Notes under the pieces: generated by a model
Databases searched by the model: none
What the model was told of the DNA's origin: nothing
What the model saw: only the letters and a program-made list of their open reading frames with translations
NCBI GenBank assembly: GCA_003282975.1
Contig: QBYD01000001.1
Coordinates: forward strand, 62,001-126,000
Direction of reading: 5' to 3'
Origin: Pelagibacteraceae bacterium AG-325-C10
GTDB taxonomy: Bacteria; Pseudomonadota; Alphaproteobacteria; Pelagibacterales; Pelagibacteraceae
DNA: 64,000 nt
Made by a program: the position numbers and the translations under genes
In this document: one piece after another, positions 32,574 to 61,186 of the stretch
How positions within the stretch are numbered: position 1 is the first letter of the stretch
How the letters are laid out: every line of letters starts with the position of its first letter

Positions 32574-34805
32574 TTATTTTCCAATACCAATTATCGTTAA
32601 ATCATCATCAAGAATATCATTCTTTTCTCTAATACCTTTTTCAGAAGTACCTTTTTTCAAACTTTTAAGTCGAATTTCTTCCGTTGCATCTTCTAATTCT
32701 TTTTTTAAAGAAGAATTTTGATGTTTAATGATCAATTCTTTAACACCACTTATGCCAATTTCTTGTTTTTTTTCATTCATGCATTCAGAAAAACCGTCTG
32801 TAAAACAATAAATTCTACCTCCATTTAGATTAAAACTTTCTAATTTATATACACTTTCATCTTTATGTTTTGTAACAGCTAATGGTACTGAGCTAGATGA
32901 AAATTCTTTAAACTTTTCTCCATGTCTTAGTAATGCTGGTTGATGTCCAGCATTTGCAATTTCAACTAAATCCGTATTTAAATTATATCTTCCAACAATT
33001 GAAGTGACAAATGTTCCTGCAGGATTTGTTTCATTTAAATCATTGTTCATTTCAAATAGAATTTCATTAGGTCTAAATTTTTGTCTAGCAAAAATTTTAA
33101 ATAATGTAATAGCTTTAGCCATTACCATCCCTGCATTTACACCCTTGCCAGATACATCCGACAAGGTGAAATAAATTTCATCATTATGAAGAAAAAAATC
33201 ATAAAAATCTCCTGAAATTTCTCTAGCTGGAATATTTAGACCAAATATTGGAAAATTATCTGTGTCTCTTTTTGGCATTAAACGTTTTTGAACATTCATT
33301 GCAAGTTTGATTTCCTGTGAAACTCTATTTTTCCATTTATTTTTTTGTTTTTCAGATTGTTCAAGCTTATCCATTAAAATATTATATTGAGTTCCAATAA
33401 TACCACTATCTGTAAATGGATCTTGGGGAGCTCTATTTGAATAATCCTCTGATTTAGCTTGTTTTGTTAAAACTTCTAACAATTCATGTGTATCTGTTGA
33501 AGCATTGTGTTCTGAAATATTTAGTCCCAACTCTTCTTCAATTTTTCCCACTCTTAATGGAAAAAATTTATTAATGGTTTTAAAAACTATATAAGAACCA
33601 AAAAAACAAAAACTTCCAATTGAACCAATTCCAATTAGTTGAATAGATAATTGTTCTAATCTTGTTTTTTCAACTCCCATCATTTCGAAATTTCCAAATA
33701 TTGCAACAGCGATAGTTCCCCAAATTCCAGAAGCTAAGTGAACAGGGATTGCACTAACCACATCATCAATTTTAATTTTTTCTAATAATACAATTGTAGA
33801 TCCAGAAATAATTCCACCAATACTTCCTATTACAATTGCATCAGATGGATCGACATAAGCACACGAAGCAGTAATAGAAACTAAGCCTGCGAGTGGTCCT
33901 GTTATCATAAATAAAGGCTCAGGTTTTTTTAAAACTAGTATTCCCATTATGCTTGAAAAAATAAGTCCAAAAGAAGCGGATAAAAAAGTATTAATTAAGA
34001 TTAATGGTATCTTCAGATCCATTGCTCCATTAGCTCCACCGTTAAATCCAAACCATCCAAACCATAAAATCAAAGCTCCAAGTGCAGCTATCGGGGTATT
34101 GCTACCTTGAAAAGTTTTACGAGAACTATCTTTTCTAAATCTTCCAGTTCGATTACCTACAACTAATAAAACTGCTAGTGCGATCCATCCTCCAACTGAG
34201 TGAACAACAGATGCTCCAGCAAAATCTAGATAACCTAATTTTCCTAACCAACCAAATTTTTCTGTCGGATTATCAAAGTTAAAAGCCCATGACCAATGTC
34301 CTACAATTGGATAAAAAAATCCTGACGCAAAAAACGTAATTATTACATATGAAAAAAATTTTAATCTCTCAGCTACGGCTCCAGAAATGATGGTTGCTGC
34401 AGTTGCAACAAACATTGCCTGAAAAACAAAATAAGTTTGGTAGCCAGCAACTTTTGTCGTAAAAAAATAAAACTTATTTCCAAACAATCCAGAAACACTA
34501 GTTCCATACATTAGTGCAAAACCAAATGCCCAAAAAATTACTACCGCTATTCCAAAGTCAGTGACATTTTTAAGAGCAACATTAATACTATTTTTATTCC
34601 GAGATAAACCGGACTCTAAACACATGAAACCTGCCTGCATTAAAAAAACAAGTATCGCACATATCAATAACCAAAATGTATCTAGATTTGCTTGTAAAAT
34701 AGCATCAAGTCGAAATTCTAAAGCTTTAAGTGTGCCCTTGGTTGGAAGTTGATCAACTTTTAACTGCAGCTCGTTAAGCAAGATCTGGGTTTCAACCGCA
34801 GTCAT
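32574..34805 (-). CDS. Ammonium transporter fused to SpoIIE/PP2C-type phosphatase
   Basis: A 743-residue fusion. Residues about 40-420 are an Amt ammonium channel with 11 membrane segments: start FWLLICAILVFLMQAGFMCL, Phe-gate region FQAMFVATAATIISGAVAER (128-147), twin-His pore His202 (VHSVGGW) and His356 (VHLASGIWG), and FGWFGFNGGANG. Residues 475-510 form a coiled coil. Residues about 515-743 are a SpoIIE phosphatase with metal ligands in SGDFYDF (531-537), DVSGKG (550-555), NAGHQP, TDGFSE and DDDLT, all intact. It probably senses ammonium transport or PII state and dephosphorylates a STAS protein. It is co-transcribed with the HMA-like gene 12 bases upstream. Confidence 0.9.
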   Translation of the reverse strand: MTAVETQILLNELQLKVDQLPTKGTLKALEFRLDAILQANLDTFWLLICAILVFLMQAGFMCLESGLSRNKNSINVALKNVTDFGIAVVIFWAFGFALMYGTSVSGLFGNKFYFFTTKVAGYQTYFVFQAMFVATAATIISGAVAERLKFFSYVIITFFASGFFYPIVGHWSWAFNFDNPTEKFGWLGKLGYLDFAGASVVHSVGGWIALAVLLVVGNRTGRFRKDSSRKTFQGSNTPIAALGALILWFGWFGFNGGANGAMDLKIPLILINTFLSASFGLIFSSIMGILVLKKPEPLFMITGPLAGLVSITASCAYVDPSDAIVIGSIGGIISGSTIVLLEKIKIDDVVSAIPVHLASGIWGTIAVAIFGNFEMMGVEKTRLEQLSIQLIGIGSIGSFCFFGSYIVFKTINKFFPLRVGKIEEELGLNISEHNASTDTHELLEVLTKQAKSEDYSNRAPQDPFTDSGIIGTQYNILMDKLEQSEKQKNKWKNRVSQEIKLAMNVQKRLMPKRDTDNFPIFGLNIPAREISGDFYDFFLHNDEIYFTLSDVSGKGVNAGMVMAKAITLFKIFARQKFRPNEILFEMNNDLNETNPAGTFVTSIVGRYNLNTDLVEIANAGHQPALLRHGEKFKEFSSSSVPLAVTKHKDESVYKLESFNLNGGRIYCFTDGFSECMNEKKQEIGISGVKELIIKHQNSSLKKELEDATEEIRLKSLKKGTSEKGIREKNDILDDDLTIIGIGK

Positions 34806-34817
34806 ATTTATTTTAAA

Positions 34818-35153
34818 CTAATCTACTAGTTTTTTAGCTTCACCAGCATCAGAAATTATTTTATCAACACTTACAACTTTTATTACTTCAAATCCTGTTC
34901 CAAGAATTGCATTTTTATAATCTTCTTCGCTAAGATTTGATTTATCTCCAAAAGAGGATACAGCCACACCTTCAGGCCACGAAACTGTAACAGTTGCATT
35001 TGGGCTTGCCTCTTGAATTGCTTTTGTTACTAACTTTTGACATTTAATACACATCATGCCATTTACTTGAGCAATTTGACTTTGAGCGGCAAACAAATTA
35101 GTTGAAAAAAATATTAATGTTAATGTAAATATTATTTTTTTTAAAGTTTTCAT
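34818..35153 (-). CDS. Periplasmic heavy-metal-associated-domain-like protein
   Basis: A 111-residue exported protein: signal peptide 1-22 (LFA|AQS), then a ferredoxin-like HMA fold with GMMCIKC (about residues 32-38) equivalent to the GMTCxxC metal-binding loop, and GTGFEV near residue 90. It resembles periplasmic MerP-type proteins and would bind Cu(I) or a similar metal through the two Cys. It is 12 bases upstream of the Amt-phosphatase gene on the same strand. No transporter partner for metal is encoded nearby, so a redox role or sensor role cannot be excluded. Confidence 0.7.
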   Translation of the reverse strand: MKTLKKIIFTLTLIFFSTNLFAAQSQIAQVNGMMCIKCQKLVTKAIQEASPNATVTVSWPEGVAVSSFGDKSNLSEEDYKNAILGTGFEVIKVVSVDKIISDAGEAKKLVD

Positions 35154-35549: not shown

Positions 35550-35999
35550 TTACGGGCAAGGAGTTTTGTCGAGTTCATTACTTGAATTGAGAATAATTAT
35601 ACAAGCGCTACCTGTTGTGACTTGTTCAGCTTGAATTTCATAGTCTCCAATAAGAGGATCATCAACACAAAAGTTAAAATCAAATTTTGGCCTACGACCC
35701 CCACTGCCATCTGGCTCAGTAAGTACACCTAAACTCCCAAGAAGAGTAGTTTCTATTTCTTGAGTAGTGTCTAAATCAGCTGGGCAAGCAACATCTGCAT
35801 CAACTTTATATTCTCTATTTTCAGAAAAATATTCAGTTTGTGCCAAACCTATTTGGTACAAAGAATTTACAGCTGTTTTTTTTTTGGATGAATTAACGTA
35901 ACCACTATAGGATACAACACCTACTGCTGATATAATTCCAATTATTGCTACAACTACCAGAAGCTCTATTAAAGAAAAACCAGAGCTTCTAGTAATCAT
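35550..35999 (-). CDS. pilE: Type IV prepilin (PilE-like)
   Basis: A 149-residue prepilin. The leader MITRSSG is cleaved before FSLIELLVVVAIIGIISAVG, with the essential Glu at mature position 5. The alpha1 helix continues into GLAQTEYFSENREYKVD, a PilE-type stretch, and the globular head holds several Cys (CPAD, FCVDD, SACII, TPCP) that can form the D-region disulphide. It is a structural or minor pilus subunit, 19 bases after the other pilin gene. It is processed by PilD (58953-59717). Confidence 0.88.
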   Translation of the reverse strand: MITRSSGFSLIELLVVVAIIGIISAVGVVSYSGYVNSSKKKTAVNSLYQIGLAQTEYFSENREYKVDADVACPADLDTTQEIETTLLGSLGVLTEPDGSGGRRPKFDFNFCVDDPLIGDYEIQAEQVTTGSACIIILNSSNELDKTPCP

Positions 36000-36018: not shown

Positions 36019-36489
36019 TTAGTCTATAGTGAGGCTGCTCGCTAATTGACCATCATCCCCTTCAGGTCCATCAAAACATGTTGTAATAGTGACTGTCCCT
36101 CCAGTTGAATTATCAACGTAAGTTGTTCCTTGAGAAGTTGTATCACAATCTTCTGCTGCGCCTACTTCTATCGCTGCTTCTCCAGGAGTGAAAGGATTTG
36201 AAAAATCTGCTAGAGCTAAATTAACCGCTGTATCAACAATATCAGCATCTAATCGTTCATCACAATCTAAATTTCCGTCCATAGCATCACCGCCATCTAA
36301 TTCACATTTTTTAAGTTCTGCTGCAATATATTTAGCAATTGTCGAATGATTTGTTTTCGATGCTGATATTTTTGCACTTGCAGTGTAGCCTGAATAAGCT
36401 GTAACACCTACTGCTGCTAATATTCCAATAATTGCAACAACTACTAGTAATTCAATTAAAGTAAATCCTTTGTTATTGTTTTTTTTCAT
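36019..36489 (-). CDS. pilA: Type IV prepilin, probable major pilin
   Basis: A 156-residue prepilin with leader MKKNNNKG and mature N-terminus FTLIELLVVVAIIGILAAVG (Glu5 present). The head is acidic and carries paired Cys (KKCELDGG, LDCDERL, AEDCDTT, TTCFDGP), allowing two disulphides. A good ribosome binding site (AAAAGG, 7 bases before the ATG) and first position downstream of a 187-base AT-rich divergent region suggest high expression, as for a major pilin. Major versus minor role is inference. Confidence 0.88.
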   Translation of the reverse strand: MKKNNNKGFTLIELLVVVAIIGILAAVGVTAYSGYTASAKISASKTNHSTIAKYIAAELKKCELDGGDAMDGNLDCDERLDADIVDTAVNLALADFSNPFTPGEAAIEVGAAEDCDTTSQGTTYVDNSTGGTVTITTCFDGPEGDDGQLASSLTID

Positions 36490-36676: not shown

Positions 36677-36976
36677 ATGACATATAAAATTACACGTGAC
36701 GGAGATATTTCCACTATTTATCTAACAGGAGAAATAGATATGGATGTTACAGAGCAAGCTAAAGAATTAATTATGCCTGTGATTGAAGAGAAGAAGGAAG
36801 TACATCTAAATTTAAAAGATGTTGAATACATGGACTCATCTGGGATTTCAGTTTTAATTGAAAGTCACCAAAAAGCAATGGAGCTTGGCACTAGAGTGGT
36901 TCTTAAAGAAATTAGTAAGTCTGTATTAAAGGTGATCATGATGGCAAAGTTAGAACAAATACTAATTCTTGAATAA
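36677..36976 (+). CDS. STAS-domain anti-sigma-factor antagonist (RsbV/SpoIIAA-like)
   Basis: A 99-residue single-domain STAS protein. YLTGEIDMDVTEQAKELI (residues 15-32) and LKDVEYMDSSGISVLIESHQ (46-65) are the family signature, with the phosphorylatable Ser in DSSG (residues 54-57). In partner-switching systems the dephosphorylated form binds the kinase/anti-sigma protein and frees its target; phosphorylation blocks this. The next gene encodes just such a kinase, and three SpoIIE phosphatases in the window could reactivate it. It is encoded divergently from the pilin genes. Confidence 0.9.
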   Translation: MTYKITRDGDISTIYLTGEIDMDVTEQAKELIMPVIEEKKEVHLNLKDVEYMDSSGISVLIESHQKAMELGTRVVLKEISKSVLKVIMMAKLEQILILE

Positions 36977-36983
36977 AAAATTC

Positions 36984-37394
36984 ATGGATATATCTGAAAT
37001 CAAAGATTTTCCAGTAAACAGTAAAAGTCTAAGAGAAGTAAGAGAATTTTCAAGAGAAGTAATAAGTAAGTCTTCAATATTAGAAGAGAGTAAAGAAGAA
37101 TTAGTTTTAGCAATCGGAGAAGCTGCTCAAAATATTGTTAAACACGCTTATAAAGATAATCTTGATACTAATGATAAAATGCAAATAAAGATTTCATTTA
37201 AAAATAAAATATTAGAAATTGGTTTTTTTGATAAAGGTAAACCAATTGTAGAAGAGAATATTAAACATCGAAGTTTAGATGATATAAAACCTGGTGGACT
37301 AGGTACTTATTTTATTCAACAGATAATGGACGAAGTTGTTTTTAAAGAAGCCACTGGATGGCATAATAATTTAGTTTTAACAAAAAAGTATTAA
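36984..37394 (+). CDS. RsbW/SpoIIAB-like HATPase serine kinase (anti-sigma type)
   Basis: About 136 residues with a GHKL/HATPase_c_2 fold: N-box ELVLAIGEAAQNIVKHAY, G1-box GFFDKGKPI and G2-type KPGGLGTYFIQQIMDEV. All ATP-binding elements are present. It should phosphorylate the STAS protein and bind a target such as a sigma factor or a pilus regulator. I chose ATG 36984, 7 bases after the STAS stop; an upstream in-frame TTG (36969) would overlap the STAS gene by 8 bases. No sigma-factor gene is visible in the window. It converges on pilC with a 5-base gap. Confidence 0.87.
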   Translation: MDISEIKDFPVNSKSLREVREFSREVISKSSILEESKEELVLAIGEAAQNIVKHAYKDNLDTNDKMQIKISFKNKILEIGFFDKGKPIVEENIKHRSLDDIKPGGLGTYFIQQIMDEVVFKEATGWHNNLVLTKKY

Positions 37395-37399
37395 AGCCG

Positions 37400-38638
37400 T
37401 TAACCCATAATAGCACCAACGTTAAATATCGGTGCATACATTGCTATCATTAAGCCACCTATCATAGAACCCATAAATACAATCATGATTGGCTCAATTA
37501 AACTAGACATATTATCCACAGCTGTATCAAATTCTTCTTCGTAATAAGATGAAACAGATCCGAACATTTCATCTAGATTACCTGTTTGCTCTCCAACAGA
37601 AATTAATTGACTAAAGGTGGGTGGAAAAACTGGCTCTTTTAAAAAAAGTTTAGTAAGTGTGTCTCCAGAAAAAACTCCTTTTTTAACATTTTCTAAAGCT
37701 TGGGTTACTACATCATTATTGCTTACTGATTTTGCAATTTCAATACTTTCTAAAAGATTTACACCAGCTGCACTTAGATTTCCCATAATTAAGGCAATTC
37801 TTGCAAGCAAAGATTTTAAAATCATTTCACCAAATACTGGTAATTTAAGAACTACTCCGTGCCATTTATATCTAATACTAGGAATTTTGGTTGTAACATA
37901 TTTAAAAATAATAAACGAAGTTAAGGAAATAATTCCTAATGTAAGACCACCAGATCCTCTCATAAAATTACTAGCTGTCATAATTACAGCTGTAGGAGTT
38001 GGAAGTGGAACTCCCATTCCTGAATACATTTCAGCAAATACTGGAACCACTTTAATTAACATAAAAACCATTACGGTAATTGCAACGCTAAACATTACAG
38101 CCGGATACATTAATGCACCTTTAATTTTTTTCTTAACCTTCTCTCTTTTTTCAAGAGAATCTACCAATTTTAATAAAAACAAATCTAATTTACCACTAGC
38201 TTCTCCTGCTTTAATTAAATTAATATAAACATTATCAAACACAGCAGGGTATTTTTCAAAACATTTTGATAAAGTAACACCTCCTTCTAAACTTTTTCTT
38301 ATATCTTCTACAATTTCTTTTACAGTCGGGTGTTCTATTTGATCCCGTATCATTTGAAGTACATTTAAAATAGGTAAACCAGCTTTAACCATAGTTGCAA
38401 ATTGCTTAGAGAAAATCACTACATCCTGAGGTTGGACTTTTTTCTTACCGAAAGAAAAGGATGATTTTTTACTTTTTTCTTTGATTTTTTTTTTAATTTT
38501 TTCTCTAGCGATATTAGTAATTATTATTTTTTTTTCTTTTAATTTAAATGAAGCTTCTTCTAAACTTAGAGCTTCTATATTACCTTCAACATATGCACCT
38601 GCTGAAATTCCCTTATATTTGTAATTTTCTGATGACAT
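37400..38638 (-). CDS. pilC: Type IV pilus inner-membrane platform protein PilC
   Basis: A 412-residue platform protein: two T2SSF domains (about residues 75-200 and 275-400) with three membrane segments (about 175, 225 and 385). Typical motifs are FSKQFATMVKAGLPILNVL, GEASGKLD and, in the second half, ISVGEQTGNLDEMF. It couples the PilB and PilT motors to pilin extraction. The N-terminal about 70 residues are very basic (KKKIKEKSKK), which may bind the ATPases. It follows pilB by 3 bases and ends the pilMN-O-P-Q-B-C operon. Confidence 0.93.
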   Translation of the reverse strand: MSSENYKYKGISAGAYVEGNIEALSLEEASFKLKEKKIIITNIAREKIKKKIKEKSKKSSFSFGKKKVQPQDVVIFSKQFATMVKAGLPILNVLQMIRDQIEHPTVKEIVEDIRKSLEGGVTLSKCFEKYPAVFDNVYINLIKAGEASGKLDLFLLKLVDSLEKREKVKKKIKGALMYPAVMFSVAITVMVFMLIKVVPVFAEMYSGMGVPLPTPTAVIMTASNFMRGSGGLTLGIISLTSFIIFKYVTTKIPSIRYKWHGVVLKLPVFGEMILKSLLARIALIMGNLSAAGVNLLESIEIAKSVSNNDVVTQALENVKKGVFSGDTLTKLFLKEPVFPPTFSQLISVGEQTGNLDEMFGSVSSYYEEEFDTAVDNMSSLIEPIMIVFMGSMIGGLMIAMYAPIFNVGAIMG

Positions 38639-38641
38639 GAT

Positions 38642-40390
38642 TTATTCCATTGATAAAACACGGTCGAATTCTCTAAAATTTAAATCTCCACTTAAAATTA
38701 AAGCACGACCCATATCTTGCATTGTTCTAAATCCTTCTTTTAAAGCAATTGCTTTAAGTTCAGGAGTAGTAGCTTTTTTTAATATCGCTTCTTTAATAGG
38801 TTTAGTTACACTTAGAATTTCATAAATTCCCATTCTGCCTTTATAACCAGAGTCTTTACATGATGAACATCCCTTACCTCTTGAAGCTTTCGCTGAAGAA
38901 ATTTGATCATCTGTGAAATTCATTTCTTTTAGAACTTCTGGTGTAACATCTGGGTCTGGCTCTCTACAATTAGAACAATTTTTTCTAGCTAATCTTTGAC
39001 CTAACACTAAAGAAACTGCAGCACTAATCAAATAATCTGGTGTTCCCATATTCTGTAATCTAGTAATTGTACTTGGTGCATCATTAGTATGAAGAGTGCT
39101 AAATACAAGGTGACCTGTTAAAGCTGCTTTTAATCCAATATCAACTGTTTCTTTATCTCTCATTTCTCCTACAAGAATAATTTCTGGGTCTTGTCTTAAA
39201 AATGACCTAAGAGCTCTCCCAAAATCATAACCTATATCATCTTTGATTTGAACTTGACCAACACCATCTAATTCATACTCTACTGGATCTTCAGCAGTTA
39301 AAATATTTAAGTGAGGTTTAGATACTTCTTTTAAAATACTATATAAAGTTGTTGTTTTACCAGAACCAGTTGGACCCGTAACTAAAACTAATCCTTGGGT
39401 AGAATGAATTGCTTTTCTAAGATTACTTAAGTCATTTTCTTCAAAATTAAGTTGTTCTAAACTTATATCTCCAGCGTCTTTATTAAGTACCCTCATTACT
39501 ATTCTTTCATTTGTTGCTGTCGGTAAAATTGAAAGTCGGAGATCAACTACCTTCCCATCAATTTTAAAAGGAATTGCACCATCTTGTGGTAATCTTCTTT
39601 CGGCGATATCTAATTTTCCCATAATCTTAAATCTAGTCACTACAGCGCCATAATTAGAATGTAAAAATTTTGAGAAATGTTCTTGTTCCTTAAGCATACC
39701 ATCCTGTCGATATCTTACTCTTGAGCTAAATCTATATGGCTCGATATGAATATCTGAAACTCCAGATTTAATAGCTTCAGCAACTACAGCAGTACTAAAT
39801 TTTATTACTTCAGACTCATTTTCAATTGCCTCAATATCTTCCTCTGTATCCTCTAAAACTTCTGCTTGTTCATCAACTTCATAATCAAATGTTTTAGTTT
39901 TTTCCGCATTTGCTTCTTTAATTGAATTAATAGTAGTTTCTCCACCTTCTTTTAGTAAATTTTCTATGAAATCTGAAATTTCAGATACTTTTGCGGCATG
40001 TAATTCGATATTTTTTTTTGTAATTGTTTTTAGGTTTCTCATTAGACTTAATTTTGAGCTATCAGAAATGGCAATATGAAGAACGTCATTTTCTAATTTA
40101 AAGGGAGCGATAAAATTCATATTAATATAATTGGTCGGAAGAACAGATCTAATCTCATCAGAAATTTCGATATTTTTAAGATCAACGATTGAAAGCGACT
40201 GTTCTTTTACTAGAAGATCTAGAATAGCGTCTTCATTAGTTAAATTTAACTCAAATACAGCCTCAATTTGAGATTTATCACCATCATTTGAAGCTTTTTT
40301 AATATTTATTAAATCTGTACCCGAAATTATATCCTGATCGATTAGAATATTAATTAAATTTATCTCTGACTCTCTACTTATCTTTAACAT
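38642..40390 (-). CDS. pilB: Type IV pilus assembly ATPase PilB
   Basis: A 582-residue GspE/PilB motor. An N-terminal MshE-type domain (about residues 10-140) and a Glu-rich linker (171-194) precede the catalytic part: Asp box SDIHIEP (212-218), Walker A GPTGSGKTT (339-347), EDPVEYELDGV, Walker B ILVGEMRD, HTNDAP His box and the tetra-Cys zinc site (CSNC...CSSC). It drives pilus extension from the cytosolic face. All motifs are intact. It overlaps the secretin gene by one base. Confidence 0.95.
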   Translation of the reverse strand: MLKISRESEINLINILIDQDIISGTDLINIKKASNDGDKSQIEAVFELNLTNEDAILDLLVKEQSLSIVDLKNIEISDEIRSVLPTNYINMNFIAPFKLENDVLHIAISDSSKLSLMRNLKTITKKNIELHAAKVSEISDFIENLLKEGGETTINSIKEANAEKTKTFDYEVDEQAEVLEDTEEDIEAIENESEVIKFSTAVVAEAIKSGVSDIHIEPYRFSSRVRYRQDGMLKEQEHFSKFLHSNYGAVVTRFKIMGKLDIAERRLPQDGAIPFKIDGKVVDLRLSILPTATNERIVMRVLNKDAGDISLEQLNFEENDLSNLRKAIHSTQGLVLVTGPTGSGKTTTLYSILKEVSKPHLNILTAEDPVEYELDGVGQVQIKDDIGYDFGRALRSFLRQDPEIILVGEMRDKETVDIGLKAALTGHLVFSTLHTNDAPSTITRLQNMGTPDYLISAAVSLVLGQRLARKNCSNCREPDPDVTPEVLKEMNFTDDQISSAKASRGKGCSSCKDSGYKGRMGIYEILSVTKPIKEAILKKATTPELKAIALKEGFRTMQDMGRALILSGDLNFREFDRVLSME

Positions 40391-41916
40391 TATAAAATTC
40401 TAGGAGCTATAAATACTAATAATTCGTTTAAAGTATCCTTTTGTGCTTTTCCTTTAAAAAGATTACCAATTACGGGAACATTGCCTACGCCAGGTGTTTG
40501 ATTTTTATTATTAGAATCATATTCTTTTTTTATTCCACCTATTACTACCACATCACCATCCGCAACTAATAATTTAGTTAAAATTTCCATAGTATTTATC
40601 GGGATACCTCCCTCAACAGGAGCTCCTGCACTATTATTTTTCAAATTTATATTAAGAAGAACATTTCCGTCTCCAACAATACTTGGAGTTACCTCTAAGC
40701 TTAAATCAGCTTTTGCAAAAGAAACTCCTCCTGTCTCTCCACCAGACTCATAAGGTATATTTGTACCTTGAACTACATTCGCGACTTGGTTATCTAAAGT
40801 AAATATTTTAGGATTAGAAATTTGTCTGACCATACCTAACTTTTCAAGAGCTGTTATCTCGGCTTTCAATACTGCAGAACCTGTTCTTTTTATTACTCCT
40901 ATACCACTAGTAGCGCCCGCTACACCAAAGCTTGTTATTGTGTCTGTAGAAGAGCCTAGCGCAGCAGATGCTGAGGTTAAGCCAGCTGATCCTGATGAAG
41001 TACCTGCAACCCCACCAATTGCTTCATTATTTCTACCGTAGTATCCTCCTAGATTAGCTCCTAAAGCTCTCTCAAATTCTGAGCTTGCTTCAACAATAAA
41101 AGCTTCTATGAGAACTTGCTCTGTCTTAATATCAATTTCTCTCAAAACTTTATTTACTACGTCAAGATCTTTTTCTTTTCCTCTAACAATTATTGACCTT
41201 GTGGTTAGTTCTTCTGTTATTTGAATTGATGCAGAATCCCCTGAACTAAATAGTTCTGAAATAGTCTTCTTTGCTTCGCTTGGTGATATATAATAAAGTC
41301 TAAAAATTTCTGAGTAAATTGGATCCGTGCTATTTTCAATCTCAAATTTTTTCTTTATTACATCTGCACGTGCAGATTTATAACTTTCTTGCTGAGTTAA
41401 AGTTGATGGTAAATGAACTCTGATCAAATTTCCATCAGTATCAATATCAGCTGCATAATTTTTCATATCTAAAAGTGCTTGAAAAGCTTTGTCCCATGGC
41501 ACATTTACAAGCTCTGCAGAAACCGTTCCTGCCACTTCCTCTCCAACTAAAATATTAATTTCGCCAATTTTCCCCATTAATTCCATAGCTTCTTTAAATT
41601 CTATGTTTTTATATTTAAAAGTGACACTTTGTTTTAATAAAGGATATTCATTAGATATCGTTAAATAGTTTTTTCTAATTTCAGATGAGATTTTTTTTCT
41701 CTTTTGAAGTTTTTTCCCTTCACCTGAAACAGGCTTAGGTCCTAATTCAACTGTTTTTGCAATTTCAGCTTTTCCTTGCTTTTTAATATCTCCTTTTATT
41801 AATGGAGTATTATGTTTAAAGTCTTTGTTATATCTTTTATTTAAATCCGCACATCCGCTAAGAATTAATGAGACAAATAGCAAACCTAAAATTTGATTAA
41901 TATTTTTAATACTCAT
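40390..41916 (-). CDS. pilQ: Lipoprotein secretin (PilQ/MshL type)
   Basis: A 508-residue outer-membrane secretin. The chosen ATG at 41916 has an AGAGG ribosome binding site and yields a lipoprotein signal ending LILSGC (Cys22); an upstream ATG at 41946 would overlap pilP by 41 bases and bury the signal. Domains: secretin/TonB-short N-terminal part (VTFKYKNIEFKEAMELM), N-domain SEIFRLYYISPSEAKKTI, and the secretin core closing with DGDVVVIGGI and GNLFKGKAQKDTLNELLVFI. Being lipidated and lacking AMIN domains, it is more like MshL than classical PilQ; no separate pilotin is seen. Confidence 0.9.
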   Translation of the reverse strand: MSIKNINQILGLLFVSLILSGCADLNKRYNKDFKHNTPLIKGDIKKQGKAEIAKTVELGPKPVSGEGKKLQKRKKISSEIRKNYLTISNEYPLLKQSVTFKYKNIEFKEAMELMGKIGEINILVGEEVAGTVSAELVNVPWDKAFQALLDMKNYAADIDTDGNLIRVHLPSTLTQQESYKSARADVIKKKFEIENSTDPIYSEIFRLYYISPSEAKKTISELFSSGDSASIQITEELTTRSIIVRGKEKDLDVVNKVLREIDIKTEQVLIEAFIVEASSEFERALGANLGGYYGRNNEAIGGVAGTSSGSAGLTSASAALGSSTDTITSFGVAGATSGIGVIKRTGSAVLKAEITALEKLGMVRQISNPKIFTLDNQVANVVQGTNIPYESGGETGGVSFAKADLSLEVTPSIVGDGNVLLNINLKNNSAGAPVEGGIPINTMEILTKLLVADGDVVVIGGIKKEYDSNNKNQTPGVGNVPVIGNLFKGKAQKDTLNELLVFIAPRIL

Positions 41917-42370
41917 CTGCCTCTCTAATTTGGTTATTAAAATCAATTATTATGAATTTTTTATCCTCATTTTCAAAAATGGCTTCATTTAATCTTAGAT
42001 CTACTAATTTTATTTTTCCAAGATATTGGCCAATGGTTAATGAATATGGTTCTCCATTTGATTTCATCATTGAAATATAGCTATTTTTTTCTCCAGCAAT
42101 TAAACCTACCAACTTGAAGTTGTATAAGCTCATTTCATCAAGAAGTTGATCCTCTGGGATGGACATAGAAGAGTTTACACTATTATTATTTGAACTTTGT
42201 CCAGCGAAAGGATCATTCAATGGTAGCTCCTCATTTAACGAGTCTAATTCCTCTGTAATTTTTTTAACTTCATTAACTAATTTTTTTTCTTTATCATGAT
42301 TATCAGCACTTACTATTGTGCTTAGTAAGAACAATGTCAAAAATATTAATGGAAGTTTAATTAAATTCAT
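41906..42370 (-). CDS. pilP: Type IV pilus alignment protein PilP
   Basis: A 154-residue protein with signal peptide (residues 1-22, cleavage near VSA|DNH), a disordered Glu/Asn-rich linker with LPLNDPFAG (PilP-typical), and a small beta-domain LYNFKLVGLIAGEKNSYISM (about 82-101) followed by GQYLGKI. It links PilN/PilO to the secretin in the periplasm. Unlike many PilP it has no lipobox; here the secretin is the lipoprotein. It overlaps pilO by 14 bases and the secretin gene by 11. Confidence 0.85.
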   Translation of the reverse strand: MNLIKLPLIFLTLFLLSTIVSADNHDKEKKLVNEVKKITEELDSLNEELPLNDPFAGQSSNNNSVNSSMSIPEDQLLDEMSLYNFKLVGLIAGEKNSYISMMKSNGEPYSLTIGQYLGKIKLVDLRLNEAIFENEDKKFIIIDFNNQIREADEY

Positions 42371-43007
42371 TTGGCAATCCTACTATCGTTAATTGTCCAG
42401 TGGCAATTATCTTGCCACCATCATCTTTTTTAACTTTTACAACCTCTTGGTCAAAGTTTAACATTTTTTTTGATTTTGCAACAGCTCTTTTAAACTTAAT
42501 AAAATCTAAAAAATTTCCACTAATTTCATAAGTTACAGGAATTTCATAATAAGAAACTTTTTTAGCTTTAGCTGATTTCTTTTTCTTTTTCTTTTTCTTT
42601 TTCTTTCCCTTTTTTCCCGACGTAATCGGTATTGGTGGTTTTTTTTCTATTTTAGATATTATTAAATTATAATTAGTCGCAAAAATACTTAAACTATCAT
42701 AAAGATCCTCTACTTCAGCTTTAGAATGAAATAAACTTGAATTCTTTTTATATTTTGGGGTAATTTTTTTTATCTTATTTTTTAATAATTTAATTTCTTT
42801 ATTAAATTTTTTAGTTTCATTTAATTTCAAAATTTGATCTTTTTCAATATTCTTTTTTTTATCTACAATTGGCTTTAATATAGCTAAGTATATAATAAGA
42901 AATAAAATTAACGCACCAAAACCAATCCCAAACTTGATAAGAGTTTTTTTATCAAGTTTTAAAACTTTTTCTTTTAAATCATTTATATTTATAGTTTTCA
43001 AATCCAT
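42357..43007 (-). CDS. pilO: Type IV pilus alignment protein PilO with poly-lysine insert
   Basis: A 216-residue protein: short cytosolic N-terminus, one membrane helix (about residues 25-46), a periplasmic coiled coil (50-90) and a PilO-type ferredoxin-like C-terminal domain (about 95-210). Residues 132-150 are almost all Lys and lie in a loop between the first helix/strand and the YYEIPVTYEISGNF strand; the DNA there is a 6-base tandem repeat. PilO forms the alignment complex with PilN and PilP. The insert is unusual and may contact the cell wall or polyanions. It overlaps pilP by 14 bases and lies 5 bases after pilMN. Confidence 0.85.
   Translation of the reverse strand: MDLKTININDLKEKVLKLDKKTLIKFGIGFGALILFLIIYLAILKPIVDKKKNIEKDQILKLNETKKFNKEIKLLKNKIKKITPKYKKNSSLFHSKAEVEDLYDSLSIFATNYNLIISKIEKKPPIPITSGKKGKKKKKKKKKKSAKAKKVSYYEIPVTYEISGNFLDFIKFKRAVAKSKKMLNFDQEVVKVKKDDGGKIIATGQLTIVGLPNEFN
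42579..42606. repeat. Hexanucleotide tandem repeat in pilO
   Basis: On the + strand CTTTTT is repeated four full times with a partial fifth unit (C at 42579, 42585, 42591, 42597 and 42603). On the coding strand this is AAAAAG, giving Lys-Lys per unit. Because the unit is 6 bases, slippage would change the number of Lys residues without shifting the frame. Confidence 0.85.
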
Positions 43008-43012
43008 AATTA

Positions 43013-44707
43013 TTATGCTTCCAATCTACAAATTATCTTAAATCCTTTATTCTCTTGACCGTTAGGGGATTTAACTGATGACATTGTTGCGAGTGTTGCT
43101 TGTCTTATTGATTTTTTATCATTTAAATTTCTTATCAATTTTAATATATTTTGATCGTTAGCTGATGACCCTGTAATAATTAATCTTTTTTTTCCATCAT
43201 ATTCGATAGACTCAAATCTTAATCCTCTTGGAACAGATGACGCAACTTGAGCTAAAACTTTAAAACTGACTATTTTATTAGATTTGATTGATTTACTTAG
43301 TTTTAATGAGGTTGTCATTCTGCCTAGTTCTTTAGCAAATTTATTCTTTTCTTTTTCAGTGGACTTATGTTCTTTGACAATTTTTTCATAATTAACAATC
43401 TTTTTGTTTAAATTTGAGATTTGCCAAAAAGAAAAAGAAAATAAAAAAATATAAACTACTGCAACAATACTAATGACCCCTTTAAATGCAAAATTAGAAA
43501 ACATTTTTGCTTTCTTTTCTGAAATCATAGCATCTCTGTTTGGAAGTAAGTTAATATTTTTTACTGCAGTTACAAATTTATAATATCCAAAAACATCTAG
43601 TTTTCTAAATGCTAATCCTATCACTGAGGTAAAATAAGATCTGTTGGACTGATCTACATTTTGTTTTAATTGTTCTTGAACATTTAAATCTTGAATAGGA
43701 TCAAAAAGCACAAAACCTGTATTAGTTAAATTTTTTCTAAAGCTTTCCAAATAAATATCAATTTTCTCTAAGTTAGATATAACTCTTATATTTCTAACTC
43801 TTTTTTCATACTTAGTTTCAAAATCTTGAATAGCTTGTTTAACTTGTGTAACATATCTTCTCACAAGTGCCTCTACATCTTCAATATTGTCAGAGTTTAA
43901 CAAAATTTGTCTATCCTGCCCTCTTATGAATATATCTGTGATAATTGGATTATTATCATATAAAATCATCACGTAATTTTCGTCTAAACCAAATTCAAGT
44001 AAGACCGTTAAATTTTCTTCTTCTAATCCAGATGAAATTTGGTTAATTTGGTCAACTGCAGATTTTAATGAAAAACACTTAACATCAATTATAACTGGGT
44101 TTAAACCACCTTTTTCAATTATTGAGGTATATGCATTTACATCAGATAGTTTAGATGCAACAAACAAAATATCCATTGTGTTTGCTGTTTGATTTCTATT
44201 TACAACTTGATGAAATATTGAATAATCAGATAAGTTATCTGTTAATTGAACAAGATTTTCCCAAAGTGAGTCTGATTTAATTGCAGTAGTTAACTCCTCA
44301 TCTGTCATTAGTGGGCTCGTTACAACTCTTATTATCGCAGAGGTTACTGGAATAGCTACTGCCGCATTACTTGTTGAAATTTTTGATTTTTCTACAGCTA
44401 TTTTTAATTGTTCAGAGACTAAATCAGCATGATCTGTTATATTTGCTTCTTCTGGTAAACCTATAATTTTATGAATATAAAATTTATTTAAATTCCATTT
44501 ACCTGAGTTTGCTTGGCTGATTTGTGCCAGCCTTATCTCTCCCCCACTTATTTCTACACCAACAACATCCTCTCCTTTTGCTTTATTTCCAAGACGCTTT
44601 TTGAAAAATTTTTCAAACCAACCAGATTTATTTGAATTTGTTGATGAAGGAGTTATTTTTTGATCTTCAGATTTTTTTTTAAATAGATTTAAAAAAAGAT
44701 TTTTCAT
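43013..44707 (-). CDS. pilMN: Fused PilM-PilN type IV pilus assembly protein
   Basis: A 564-residue fusion. Residues about 45-370 are a PilM actin-like fold (VVGVEISGGEIRLAQIS, VIIDVKCFSLKSAVDQI, RRYVTQVKQAIQDFE). Residues 384-389 read NINLLP, the motif at the N-terminus of free PilN proteins that docks into PilM. A membrane helix (410-431), coiled coil (435-470) and PilN-type periplasmic domain with VPRGLRFESIEYDG follow. The fusion makes the normally non-covalent PilM-PilN contact permanent. An N-terminal basic extension of about 45 residues precedes PilM. It is the first gene of the minus-strand assembly operon, divergent from pilT. Confidence 0.88.
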   Translation of the reverse strand: MKNLFLNLFKKKSEDQKITPSSTNSNKSGWFEKFFKKRLGNKAKGEDVVGVEISGGEIRLAQISQANSGKWNLNKFYIHKIIGLPEEANITDHADLVSEQLKIAVEKSKISTSNAAVAIPVTSAIIRVVTSPLMTDEELTTAIKSDSLWENLVQLTDNLSDYSIFHQVVNRNQTANTMDILFVASKLSDVNAYTSIIEKGGLNPVIIDVKCFSLKSAVDQINQISSGLEEENLTVLLEFGLDENYVMILYDNNPIITDIFIRGQDRQILLNSDNIEDVEALVRRYVTQVKQAIQDFETKYEKRVRNIRVISNLEKIDIYLESFRKNLTNTGFVLFDPIQDLNVQEQLKQNVDQSNRSYFTSVIGLAFRKLDVFGYYKFVTAVKNINLLPNRDAMISEKKAKMFSNFAFKGVISIVAVVYIFLFSFSFWQISNLNKKIVNYEKIVKEHKSTEKEKNKFAKELGRMTTSLKLSKSIKSNKIVSFKVLAQVASSVPRGLRFESIEYDGKKRLIITGSSANDQNILKLIRNLNDKKSIRQATLATMSSVKSPNGQENKGFKIICRLEA

Positions 44708-48489: not shown

Positions 48490-49035
48490 ATGAGAAATAA
48501 AATTTACGAAATTTCAATTTTAATATTATTTTTTTTACTAAGTACAATAAAAATAGTCAGCGCTGAATGTAATTTTAAAATAAGATTTGGTGAAAATGTT
48601 TTAAAAATAAAAGATTTTATAGATATCAACACTGAAGATAATTTAATCTTAGAGAAATACTCTATATCTTATTTGGATGTGTGTCCTAATGAGAATTTAG
48701 ATGAAAATACCAATGTGAGTTACACTTTTATAGACGATGAATTGGCTAATATTAGAATTGTAGTTAACAACTTTAATGAAAACAATGATGCATCAAATAC
48801 ATTAAAATTAATGAAATATGTTAAACAAAATTTTGGAGATTTTGATACCGGACAAAATCCTAAAATTTATAATTATTTTAATTCTTGGAAAATAAATAAT
48901 GAAATTATTATTTACAAAAGAATTAGAAATCAATTTAATATTATTGAGGAAGAACTTTTTATTACGAATGAAAAGTATGATGAAAAAATGAACAGAATTA
49001 ATGCAAGGATTGAGAAAGGTGAAATTAAAAGATAA
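48490..49035 (+). CDS. Exported protein of unknown function in the minor-pilin operon
   Basis: A 181-residue protein with signal peptide (residues 1-25, VSA|ECN) and a mixed alpha/beta sequence containing two Cys (residues 27 and 77). It lies 2 bases after pilX and 4 bases before the pilY1 ATG, in the place where other bacteria may carry PilE or accessory proteins. It has no prepilin leader. I do not recognise a family. Position suggests a periplasmic factor for minor-pilin or PilY1 assembly. Confidence 0.7.
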   Translation: MRNKIYEISILILFFLLSTIKIVSAECNFKIRFGENVLKIKDFIDINTEDNLILEKYSISYLDVCPNENLDENTNVSYTFIDDELANIRIVVNNFNENNDASNTLKLMKYVKQNFGDFDTGQNPKIYNYFNSWKINNEIIIYKRIRNQFNIIEEELFITNEKYDEKMNRINARIEKGEIKR

Positions 49036-49039
49036 CCTA

Positions 49040-56300: not shown

Positions 56301-56741
56301 TCAAAAAATTTAAATAATTTTGGTAATATTTACTTTAGTTCTATGTTTGGAAATTCAAGATTAGATAACATTAAAAATTCACTAATAGTTGATACGTCAA
56401 ATGTCCTATCATCTAGTTTTGAGGTTAATTATGAGCTTAAAAATCTATTTAGTAATGATCAATTAAATATCTCTTTATCTCAGCCGAATAGAGTGGAGCA
56501 AGGTGATATGACATTTAGATTTATGGGGTTAGCAGATAAAAATGGTGTCCTACCCTATCAAGATCACAAAGTAAGCTTATCTCCATCAGGTAGACAAAAA
56601 GATTTAACGCTAAGTTATTATAAAAATCACTCTAAAAATTTAAAAACTGGGATAAAAGCAGTTTTAACTGATGATTTAGGGCATGTTAAAAATAATAGTT
56701 TAGATACAAATTTATTATTATCTGCTTCTTATAATTTTTAA
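53331..56741 (+). CDS. Subtilisin-like (S8) serine protease autotransporter
   Basis: 1136 residues: signal peptide 1-24 (AQA|ITF), a unique Lys-rich N-terminal region to about 200, an Ala/Gly linker (205-232), a Calx-beta-like domain (234-340), and a subtilase domain with Asp408, His438 (NHGTHVAS), oxyanion Asn region NNSWGY and Ser658 (GSSMGAPQ). A Gly/Ser hinge (749-760) leads to a C-terminal autotransporter beta-barrel (about 860-1136) ending in ASYNF. The catalytic triad is complete. It probably cleaves proteins at the cell surface or releases itself or PilY1-type adhesins. A promoter-sized 121-base gap separates it from pilY1. Confidence 0.88.
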   Translation: MKSIFIKIISLLFFFSFGVNVAQAITFKNYDELNNCVDFYNTFSQYKKNLQKCFEEKDIKINKDSLKLIKKDYGLIENIIDLNLPEEKIIKKPKKRKLSEILNNIFKPDLEKIEQKESIFNKPYQSVGVDESNKFTLNDKDFKKLNDHIRNNPENIFSITEDINILTYKNNYLSEFKRQEVLLNVYNSFDVTVLASKVPPTEATAFGGAGGIAAVAAVAAAAGGGGGGGGSSAPTLSFAISSTSVGECDSDVTITANLTAAHSSDVTIIYTVGGTATKDTDYTISTTTSTLVAGSTSVSITISPTNDTTVETSETVTLAANVSGVSTTGNTSSTITIHDYVLKCNATAFSEGTTSEQNTIKNRSSWAAVDQSSNNVHPYELFNLHKVHSFKSGATTLTGNSQTIYIMDNQMDNDHDSFDGKTVTMLDSPAVSTTEANHGTHVASIAAGIVAGTTHGVAPDASLVFSTFDDNGTAQATDIDTARTTHDAIAMNNSWGYQQGCVGDVCTSSLEWSEVVSTANSNGRSIREELNNASQHVFGSHTSTYLTALDNFQNNGVIVWANGNFPNDTDASAMASLPAYFNGTDDSLDLSDAWLTVMYAEFTGTSLSGASTSDFTRRGNPCESAKEWCLVVDDREIGAAGFINGSGTSIYNTLQGSSMGAPQVSGMIALLGQAFPNHNPEQLTDRLLASANNLWFTPSGVTTFTTHGASIKHGYNDEWGHGVPDLYAALSPITSSSNPGSFGFGSPSGGGGSGGGGGGSVPFSQITKLAVSATGMKVSSSLGDGIMNGLKGKTAYAYDALNGGFKYDVNEFINYDALTEQKIEHTLDQEISFLKNFKFSKNKTAKDFDVYAGEFINFRDKYNRGLSLTLDQPNIALQNFNLYNNNDYKNPFTSENKGVGFNNKFYFFGNNVLLGYNNSKFNPLTSVNENLVVPMETLALSVNLDNDNFDLLSFTTGLIKEENTFLLSEGSGAFNLNDQDNLSNFYGFNFSKNLNNFGNIYFSSMFGNSRLDNIKNSLIVDTSNVLSSSFEVNYELKNLFSNDQLNISLSQPNRVEQGDMTFRFMGLADKNGVLPYQDHKVSLSPSGRQKDLTLSYYKNHSKNLKTGIKAVLTDDLGHVKNNSLDTNLLLSASYNF

Positions 56742-56952: not shown

Positions 56953-58956
56953 TTATAATTTAATTCCAAGAGCAGTTATATCATCTCTTAAATTATACCC
57001 TTTTTCAGTTAATATTTTAGTTGCATGGTTGATAATTGTTTCAGGTGAAGTTGTATTCAATTTTTTTATTTCTTTTTCAAGTCCCTCTACCTCTAATTCT
57101 TTACCTTCATCAATATAACCTTCTGTAACTCCATCTGTATAAATTAAAATAGTTTTATTTGATATATTCATGGTAGTAGTTTTAAAAAAACTTTCATCTT
57201 TAACAGACATTAAACCAGATGGAGGAAGAGTAGATTTTATATATTCAAAATTAAAATTTTCATCTAAAACCATCATTGGCTCATGACCCATATTAATAAA
57301 TTCCATCTCTTTTTTCTCAATATTTACTCTTCCTAAAATGGCTGTAATAAACATAGACTGGTAAGATGAGTCTTTTACTTGGTTATTTATATACAATGCT
57401 GTCTTAGCAACTGAAGAATTCATTTTTGCAAGTGATCTGAAAACAGCTGCAGCATTTGCCATTAATATTCCAGCTTTAATTCCCTTTCCTGTTACATCAC
57501 CCAAAATAAAATAAATTTCATTATCGTTTATTTGATAATAATCAAAATAATCACCAGACACATCTTTTGCAGGCGTATTTTTTGCAAAAATATATTGTTC
57601 AATTTTTTTATTTTTTGGAAATAATTTTTTTTGAACTTCTCCTGCTATTTCTCTTTCTTTTTTTAAAATAGATTGTTTTTTGTCATTTTCTATTGCAATA
57701 ATATTTTCATCTAAATATCTAAAATATAAAGAAGTCATAAAAACAACTGTAGCTGTAATTGTTGAAAATAAAGAATCTAAATAAAAATTAAATTGATAAA
57801 TAATTATACTTATTAAATTAATAAAAACTATTGATCCAATAAAAAATATAATACTGAACTTTGGTTTTATCTTTATTGGTATAAAAACTAAAAAAACAAT
57901 CAATAAAATAAAGATTATGTTTTCACTTACTTGAGTATAAAAATTTTTAATAATGCTCTCATTATTTAAAATATTATCAATAATATGGGCATGTATTTGC
58001 ACACCTGGAACTACTTTTCCATTTGCTGTTTTAACTATATCAAAAAGTGCTTGAGCAGAAGAACCTATTAAAATTATATTGTTTTCAATTCTTTTTTTAT
58101 CAAAATCATTATTAATTACGTCTATTGCTGGAATATAATTTTCTTTATTAAAATCTCTGAATTTAATATTAATTACTCCATTTTGATCACTTATAATGTC
58201 ATTTTTTCTGGTTTTAATTAATTCAATTCCATAATTACCTGTTTGAACTAATAAATTCTTTTGATTTGTGGCAATTCTAATTGTTTCCAGAGCAATCGAA
58301 GGCCATATTAAATTATCAATATTATATAAAACAGGAATTTTTCTTATGATACCATCAATGCTTGGTATCAGTGAAATAGAACCAATTCCGCTAGCTGCAT
58401 TATTTATTTGCTCTAATGAGGTGATCTTATTTTTATATTTATAAACATAATTTCTTGGATCATTTCCTCTTGTAATAACTGTGAGTTTTGGCTTTGAATT
58501 ATTCTTAATATAACTATCGTTTGGCTCTCCAAGTATAGGTAAAATAACTTTTGATTGTTCAAGACTTTCAATAAAAATTTGATTTGTATCAGCTACCTCT
58601 ACATTTATTAATTCATCCGTTTGTTTTTGAAGTTGAGAAAGTAAGTCTTTTGGATTTTGTTTATCTTGTTCACTAAAAACAATATCAAATGCTATGGCAG
58701 ATGGATTATATTGGTTTAAATTATCTAAAATTTTAGAATAAATATCTCTACGCCATGGAAATTGACCAATTTTAGCAATACTTTTTTCATCAATATCCAC
58801 AATTGTTATATTTGTAACTTCACCTCTATTAAAAAATTTTTGATAAAGGTCATAATTGATTAAAGAAATTTTTTGTATTGATTGAGGATTAATAACTTTT
58901 AAAGTTATAAAAAAAATTAATAAAATACCTAAAAAAATTATCTTTTTATTTTTCAT
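56953..58956 (-). CDS. CHASE2-sensor SpoIIE-type phosphatase
   Basis: 667 residues: N-terminal membrane helix (5-20), periplasmic CHASE2 sensor (about 30-330, with DIDEKSIAKIGQFPWRRDIY, AIAFDIVFSE and LIGSSAQALFDIV), three membrane helices (about 340-425), a short coiled coil, then a SpoIIE phosphatase (about 455-667). Metal ligands are in VSGDYFDYY, GDVTGKG, NMGHEP, YTDGVTEG and RDDITALG; all are intact. It should dephosphorylate a STAS protein such as that at 36677-36976 in response to an extracytoplasmic signal. It overlaps pilD by 4 bases, tying the sensor to pilus biogenesis. Confidence 0.9.
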   Translation of the reverse strand: MKNKKIIFLGILLIFFITLKVINPQSIQKISLINYDLYQKFFNRGEVTNITIVDIDEKSIAKIGQFPWRRDIYSKILDNLNQYNPSAIAFDIVFSEQDKQNPKDLLSQLQKQTDELINVEVADTNQIFIESLEQSKVILPILGEPNDSYIKNNSKPKLTVITRGNDPRNYVYKYKNKITSLEQINNAASGIGSISLIPSIDGIIRKIPVLYNIDNLIWPSIALETIRIATNQKNLLVQTGNYGIELIKTRKNDIISDQNGVINIKFRDFNKENYIPAIDVINNDFDKKRIENNIILIGSSAQALFDIVKTANGKVVPGVQIHAHIIDNILNNESIIKNFYTQVSENIIFILLIVFLVFIPIKIKPKFSIIFFIGSIVFINLISIIIYQFNFYLDSLFSTITATVVFMTSLYFRYLDENIIAIENDKKQSILKKEREIAGEVQKKLFPKNKKIEQYIFAKNTPAKDVSGDYFDYYQINDNEIYFILGDVTGKGIKAGILMANAAAVFRSLAKMNSSVAKTALYINNQVKDSSYQSMFITAILGRVNIEKKEMEFINMGHEPMMVLDENFNFEYIKSTLPPSGLMSVKDESFFKTTTMNISNKTILIYTDGVTEGYIDEGKELEVEGLEKEIKKLNTTSPETIINHATKILTEKGYNLRDDITALGIKL

Positions 58957-59893: not shown

Positions 59894-61186
59894 ATGCTCT
59901 TTTTTAAAACAAAAAAACCCATTCTTAATGAAACAAGAAATGAAGCTCAAGATAACGTTGATTTACAAATTATAAATAAAATGAATCAAGAGTTTGCAAT
60001 ATCTCTTGATTTAAAAGAAACCTTAAATACTGCACTTAAGATAATTATTACGAGATTAAATGCACAAGCAGCCAATATTTTTTTAATTAATAATAAAACT
60101 AAAAAATTTGAATGTATTGCTTCTTTGAATCAAGATTATTTAGATGAATATCAACTTGATTTAAAAGATGGTGTCATGGGTAAAGCAGTAGAGCTTAGAA
60201 AATGTATCAGAGTTGGAGATGTAAGAAAAGACGTAAGAGAAATTGCTGAGTTTTATTTTGACCTAGATAATAAAACAAATTTTACAACTTTTTCTGTATT
60301 ATGTTCACCATTGATTGCTGCAAACGAATGTATTGGTGTAATTCATTGTTTAAATAAAAAAACAAATGATAAGTTATTTATTGAAGATGATCGTAAACTC
60401 TTAGAGTTATTATCAACGCCTGCTGCTTTAGCAATCAGAAATGCAAAAATGGCAAAAGATATGGTTGAGCAAAATAAATTGCAAAAAGAAATTGAGATTG
60501 TTGGTGAAATCCAAAAATCTCTTTTATCTTCAAACCAAAAAGAATCCTTTCCATTAGCTGGAATAAATATACCTGCAAAAATTGTGTCTGGAGATTTTTA
60601 TAATTTTAATGACTTGGGTGATGGGAGATATGGGTTTGGTGTAGCAGATGTATCTGGCAAAGGAATAAAATCTTCATTATTAATGTCGAAAGCTTCAAGT
60701 TTATATAGCTGCTTAAGTAAAACTAATTTTTCACCGGGAAACTTACTCACTCAATTGAATAATGAGATATGTGAAACAATTTCAAGAGGCATGTTTGTAA
60801 CTATGTTAATTGGAATTTATGATAGTAATTCAAACGAATTATTACTAGCTAATGCTGGACACGAACCTCCAATTATAATGGATAAAAATAATAATTTTTC
60901 AAATTTTGAAGAGGCGGGACCGCCTTTAGGAATTGTAAAAAAAACTGAATATAAAGAATATAAATTAAATTTTGAAAAGAGCTCAATGTATATTTTTACT
61001 GACGGTATTACAGAAATAAAGAATCCCGAAGGTAATGAATTGGGATCACAAGGATTTCAAAACTATATTATTAGATTTAAAGACAAACCAAACAATGAAA
61101 GATTAAAATTAATAATTGATAAAGTTTTAGAGTCAAAATATGTCCAAAAAGATGATTTAACAATTGTTGCTTTAGATTCTAAATAA
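59894..61186 (+). CDS. GAF-sensor SpoIIE-type phosphatase
   Basis: A 430-residue cytosolic protein without membrane helices: GAF domain (about residues 30-190, FSVLCSPLIAANECIGVIHC), a coiled linker MVEQNKLQKEIEIVGEIQKS, then a SpoIIE phosphatase (about 218-430). Metal-site motifs are VSGDFYNF, ADVSGKG, NAGHEPP, FTDGITEI and QKDDLTIVAL. The first motif has Asn where the other two phosphatases have Asp (GDFYD/GDYFD), which may change activity. It would give an intracellular input to the STAS/HATPase switch. It is divergent from pilD and convergent with dadA. Confidence 0.88.
   Translation: MLFFKTKKPILNETRNEAQDNVDLQIINKMNQEFAISLDLKETLNTALKIIITRLNAQAANIFLINNKTKKFECIASLNQDYLDEYQLDLKDGVMGKAVELRKCIRVGDVRKDVREIAEFYFDLDNKTNFTTFSVLCSPLIAANECIGVIHCLNKKTNDKLFIEDDRKLLELLSTPAALAIRNAKMAKDMVEQNKLQKEIEIVGEIQKSLLSSNQKESFPLAGINIPAKIVSGDFYNFNDLGDGRYGFGVADVSGKGIKSSLLMSKASSLYSCLSKTNFSPGNLLTQLNNEICETISRGMFVTMLIGIYDSNSNELLLANAGHEPPIIMDKNNNFSNFEEAGPPLGIVKKTEYKEYKLNFEKSSMYIFTDGITEIKNPEGNELGSQGFQNYIIRFKDKPNNERLKLIIDKVLESKYVQKDDLTIVALDSK

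Follow-up and report, generated by a model that had tools for sequence, protein, structure and literature searches.

What does a gene that joins an ammonium transporter (Amt) domain to a protein phosphatase do in a bacterium of the SAR11 group, and where might its signal go? The gene lies in a stretch of 64,000 nucleotides from Pelagibacteraceae bacterium AG-325-C10 (termed the window herein) and is read as one uninterrupted frame of 743 codons. The encoded protein matches the Pfam family Ammonium_transp at residues 45 to 436 (361.8 bits) and, in its C-terminal part, the family SpoIIE at residues 542 to 738 (101.8 bits), and it scores above the amt cut-off of TIGR00836. In an AlphaFold model (mean pLDDT of 82.9), the Amt fold superimposes on the Shewanella denitrificans receptor Sd-Amt1 (8qj3; Z score of 63, rmsd of 1.5 Å over 394 residues, 47% identity over the fold). 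The modelled PP2C fold superimposes on the SiaA phosphatase domain (Z score of 24.3, rmsd of 2.5 Å over 237 residues) and also matches Rv1364c and SpoIIE; by sequence, it matches the 3eq2 response regulator. An earlier note on this DNA had proposed a covalent fusion of an Amt to a PP2C/SpoIIE phosphatase, and the single frame, the two Pfam domains, and the two modelled folds confirm it. Our reading, to which we assign a probability of roughly 0.55, is that the fusion acts as an ammonium-gated PP2C that sets a STAS/RsbW-like switch (STAS protein and RsbW-like serine kinase), with an output on the type IV pilus and not on an alternative sigma factor. The features of the locus are listed in Table 1.

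Table 1. Features of the window around the Amt-PP2C gene (nucleotide positions in the window unless residues are stated)
Feature	Position	Strand	Remark
Amt-PP2C fusion, 743 aa	32574..34805	-	A-type paralogue
Layout of the fusion	residues 45-436; about 437-510; about 517-741		Amt domain; helical linker; SpoIIE-type PP2C
Small HMA-like CxxC protein (GMMCIKCQK)	34818..35153	-	separated from the fusion by 12 bp, on its upstream side; signal peptide likely, as judged by eye
Two type IV pilin genes	35550-35999, 36019-36489	-	between fusion and switch; N-methylation motifs
STAS protein, SpoIIAA/RsbV-like, 99 aa	36677..36976	+	MDSSG with Ser55; presumed phosphatase substrate
RsbW-like serine kinase (HATPase_c_2), at most 141 aa with a TTG start	36969..37394	+	later ATG at 36984 possible
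Type IV pilus assembly genes: pilC, pilB, pilQ, possible pilP, pilO, pilMN	37400..44707	-	presumed switch output locus
1402-aa protein	49001-53209		in the pilus cluster
1136-aa protein	53331-56741		adjoins the pilus genes
CHASE2-PP2C sensor phosphatase	56953..58956	-	putative second switch input
GAF-PP2C phosphatase	59894..61186	+	putative third switch input

The four metal-binding aspartates of the PP2C (533, 550, 670, and 734) are invariant in the fusions and, together with the SpoIIE match, bear out the claim that the phosphatase is complete. The Phe gate (F132/F254), W171, D194, H202, and H356 are all present in the window copy and invariant across 27 fused sequences. The Amt pore had likewise been called complete, and this holds for the Phe gate and the two histidines but not for the external ammonium site, where the serine (S219 in Escherichia coli, S227 in the Kuenenia protein Ks-Amt5) is replaced by Ala258. 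Between the two domains, helices are predicted with low confidence at residues 438 to 452, 466 to 481, and 485 to 509; since the ten-residue means of pLDDT across residues 430 to 510 are only about 48 to 68, the geometry of the linker is not fixed by the model. No Pfam HAMP match was obtained in the fusion, and two low-pLDDT predicted helices are seen in the linker. The coiled coil that had been described there is a plausible structure at the low confidence of the structure prediction.

A frameshift or an assembly error that joined two genes was ruled out by 27 fused ORFs, some of them near-identical, from many assemblies, and full-length fusions in many independent assemblies identify the fusion as one gene, not two misjoined. 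The relatives are uncultured Pelagibacteraceae (SAR11): full-length fusions occur in 14 of the 37 genomes of the window's SAR11 genus and also in single-cell assemblies, and the full-length homologues match at 53 to 83%. A second family in the order, represented by 24 genomes, had none. Outside the genus, no match running from the Amt C terminus through the linker into the PP2C was found among about 780 sampled Pseudomonadota genomes (385 Alphaproteobacteria and 398 Pseudomonadota, in overlapping samples, so that rare occurrences elsewhere are possible); the spread beyond the Pseudomonadota was judged from the best 80 sequence-pattern candidates. One candidate for a second Amt-PP2C, in genome G290 (match at 4-174), proved to be an Amt-histidine kinase.

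Amt domains fused to histidine kinases or GGDEF domains are known ammonium sensors, according to the earlier note. When 82 Amt domains were placed in a tree (built with a quick method with SH-aLRT support, and with Ks-Amt5 and Sd-Amt1 not among its sequences), the PP2C-fused Amts formed one clade (SH-aLRT of 99), nested in a group (SH-aLRT of 96) that otherwise consists of Amts fused to GGDEF, PAS-GGDEF-EAL, or histidine kinase domains, as read by eye from the sequences. The members of this group have linker sequences similar to that of the fusion, whose AS2-like pattern G.I..YN...L is common to sensor fusions with other outputs. A Vibrio Amt that seems to carry a chemoreceptor signalling domain shares this kind of linker, yet it was placed just outside the group. 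The two ordinary Amts of the genome were placed elsewhere in the tree (support of 100), and the tree thereby ruled out that a resident SAR11 Amt had been fused to a PP2C. The closest solved structures are Sd-Amt1 (8qj3/8qj4) and Ks-Amt5 (a Kuenenia ammonium sensor histidine kinase, 6eu6), ahead of transport-type Amts. Like the fusion, both combine an Amt with all of the classical motifs and a cytosolic C-terminal region; the output is a PP2C phosphatase in the fusion, a histidine kinase in Ks-Amt5, and, as we presume, a diguanylate cyclase in Sd-Amt1. Because the Amt part nests with sensor fusions and its closest structures are receptors, the gene most likely arose by exchange of the output domain within a sensor-Amt lineage.

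We compared the fusion with Ks-Amt5 at the ammonium sites. Q57, E64, N80, D83, and T138 of the fusion match an ammonium site of Ks-Amt5; at this second, intramembrane site, five of the seven ligand residues are identical, one is conservative, and one is different (T51 of Ks-Amt5 is Phe in the fusion and T112 is Ser). This set of five (Q, E, N, D, T) occurs in 27/27 fusions, and the SAR11 transporters do not have it in full. The same five residues occur in 35 of 76 unfused Amts, so they are no proof of sensing, and they were rejected as unspecific for a sensor test. Could the fusion instead be a working transporter, taking up ammonium and not sensing it, with a phosphatase tail that serves mainly to regulate this transport or a neighbour? 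The intact Phe gate, twin histidines, and tryptophan would fit, as would the absence of two of the three bulky residues that reportedly help to block the pore in Ks-Amt5, both of which are Leu in the fusion (L63 and L67). We consider this very unlikely, since the genome already has two ordinary Amt genes, the fusion Amt groups with sensor Amts in the tree, and the window copy has lost the serine of the external (S1) site; furthermore, Ks-Amt5 has all of the transport motifs and binds ammonium without efficient transport (PMC5764959), showing that intact motifs can go with inefficient transport.

Sensing by a phosphatase-coupled Amt is the reading that we favor, and the ligand of the window copy has to be considered with respect to its paralogues. 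The fusions fall into two types, A (the window, L004, L005, G011, and G018) and B (22 sequences). The residue at the external ammonium site, corresponding to S227 of Ks-Amt5, is Ala in every A-type sequence (5/5) and Ser in every B-type sequence (22/22). A heptad-rich N-terminal extension (in the region of residues 1 to 40) is likewise restricted to the A type, and a gene for a small HMA-like protein with a conserved CIKC lies directly upstream of A-type fusions only. None of the external-site Ala, the extension, or the HMA-like gene was found at the B-type loci examined, and the alternative neighbourhoods of B-type fusions gave no functional clue. L005, G011, and G018 each carry an A-type and a B-type gene in tandem, separated by the HMA-like gene, and this coexistence suggests a divergence of input; the window has the A type only. 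Ala258 and the HMA-like CxxC partner make ammonium less likely as the ligand of the window copy, which may sense something else or sense otherwise. A stronger version of this idea is that the A-type copy is no ammonium sensor and that the phosphatase output is driven by a different signal, such as copper or redox state, with the HMA-like protein as the go-between. The Ala, the upstream gene, the extension, and the tandems speak for it, but the remaining pore residues, including the Phe gate, the Trp, and the twin His, are intact, and the weak HMA match, at 20.0 bits, falls short of the Pfam cut-off of 24.8. We regard it as unlikely and retain ammonium as the most likely signal.

The phosphatase has a candidate substrate close by. 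The STAS and kinase genes overlap and lie 2 kb from the fusion, and in the genome assembly (80% complete) they are the single STAS match and the single HATPase_c_2 match above the cut-off. The three SpoIIE phosphatases of the assembly (the Amt fusion, CHASE2-PP2C, and GAF-PP2C) are also all in the window. Every full-length SAR11 STAS copy seen keeps the DSSG motif, and the RsbW-like kinase is conserved together with the STAS gene in relatives. The order fusion-pilins-STAS-kinase-pilC is repeated in loci L005, L006, L008 to L011, L013, and L014 and in genomes G010, G011, G018, G027, G029, and G036 (some of the L loci are possibly from the same organisms as the G genomes). The fusion is apart from the switch in some genomes (G016, G017, G020, G026, and G035), either 20 to 30 kb away (G016 and G035) or on another contig, and the switch occurs without the fusion in G012, G015, G028, and G033. 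STAS was detected in 10/14 genomes with the fusion and in 4/23 without it (Fisher P = 0.0017), and the kinase was detected in 11/14 and 4/23, respectively (Fisher P = 0.0004), neither P value being corrected for phylogeny or incompleteness. The suggestion that an Amt sensor could feed nitrogen state into partner switching is thus well supported by the position, in conserved synteny, of the only STAS and RsbW-like kinase genes found in the genome beside the fusion. The earlier note had not anticipated the place of the switch in the type IV pilus locus, the lack of an alternative sigma factor and of P-II throughout the genus, or the loss of the S1-site serine in the window copy.

Besides the single-STAS arrangement of the window, two tandem STAS genes with DSSG beside one kinase were observed in L006, L008, L009, L013, L014, L119, L126, L137, and L139. 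In other Alphaproteobacteria (L108, L112, L113, L114, and L116), PP2C, STAS, and HATPase matches lie within 3 to 4 kb of each other, and these loci are likely relatives of the SAR11 switch.

Known switches of this kind use other targets. RsbU/RsbV/RsbW and SpoIIE/SpoIIAA/SpoIIAB act on an alternative sigma factor, and the Sia and Hsb systems act on c-di-GMP. The Bacillus systems and those of Pseudomonas (SiaA and the 3eq2 response regulator, RssB) share the same three protein families with the SAR11 module, but their inputs are other than Amt domains. In the SAR11 genus, no alternative sigma factor was found, the only Sigma70_r2 proteins being of RpoD size and RpoH size (two in the complete genome G012), and GGDEF proteins were found in 0/15 genus genomes searched, so that both a sigma-B-type target and c-di-GMP are apparently unavailable. 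P-II (PF00543) was found in 0/37 genomes of the genus, compared to 21/24 in the sister family; the earlier remark that no glnK lies beside the fusion was correct and an understatement. An output coupled to GlnK or to c-di-GMP was rejected on these grounds. AmtB-GlnK likewise ties an Amt protein to nitrogen sensing but uses P-II, whereas the signal of the fusion would leave through its covalent phosphatase domain. With sigma-B-type and c-di-GMP targets apparently absent, the output is best sought in the pilus locus itself, and the examined STAS genes of the genus are near pilin, pilC, or pilD genes. A likeness, by description, is HmpU/HmpV/HmpW of Nostoc punctiforme, a phosphatase/STAS/kinase switch in a motility locus whose direct target is unknown (PMC8256260); the organism is unrelated, and no Amt input has been described for it.

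The same sensor and switch could also end in transcription: the kinase might sequester RpoH or RpoD as a true anti-sigma factor, in which case ammonium would set global transcription and the linkage to the pilus would be incidental. The kinase is a full HATPase_c_2 protein of the anti-sigma type, the genus has sigma factors of RpoD and RpoH size, and the Rsb network of Chlamydia is reported, in a reference cited in PMC8256260, to control the primary sigma factor. However, the STAS and kinase genes are near pilus genes in the examined genomes, and close relatives without the switch (e.g., G004 and G009) keep the same two sigma factors, and we therefore consider this alternative unlikely.

In the mechanism that we favor, an ammonium-gated phosphatase acting on the pilus, the Amt-type domain, presumably a trimer in the membrane as in known Amts, would respond to a signal from outside the cell, ammonium being the most likely one, and its conformational change would pass through the helical linker to the cytosolic PP2C. 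The PP2C would dephosphorylate Ser55 of the neighbouring STAS protein and thus oppose the RsbW-like kinase, CHASE2-PP2C and GAF-PP2C may bring other signals into the same switch, and the switch would act on the surrounding type IV pilus locus, that is, on pilus activity, pilin expression, or DNA uptake. The fusion, its conservation, its intact catalytic residues, and the gene linkage are directly supported; we infer that ammonium is the ligand, that STAS is the substrate, that the pilus is the output, and in which direction the response runs. For SAR11 lineages without P-II, we tentatively put forward the wider possibility that an Amt receptor with a direct phosphatase output sets a sigma-independent switch on the pilus and that external ammonium may thereby control pilus activity or DNA uptake.

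Our literature search found no description of an Amt-SpoIIE fusion and no direct precedent for partner switching with type IV pili or for a SAR11 RsbW with pili. Amt receptors with other outputs are known, such as the histidine kinase of Ks-Amt5; a phosphatase output on a partner switch is apparently undescribed and would give streamlined marine bacteria, which have few regulators, a P-II-free path from ammonium to behaviour. In a 2025 study of the cultured SAR11 strain HTCC1062, an RsbW kinase was found in the proteome and no annotated phosphatase was predicted to act on proteins (PMC13198564), a gap on which the SAR11 fusion may bear. If our reading is true, one of the ocean's most abundant bacterial groups would have its pilus activity or DNA uptake directly controlled by ammonium supply; the model predicts that ammonium alters the phosphorylation of STAS Ser55 and thereby the pili.

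Two further proteins were observed at the pilus genes of the window. The 1402-aa protein has a PilY1 beta-propeller match and is encoded by a gene that is very large for SAR11, and the 1136-aa protein matches Calx-beta weakly and contains a subtilase domain (Peptidase_S8).
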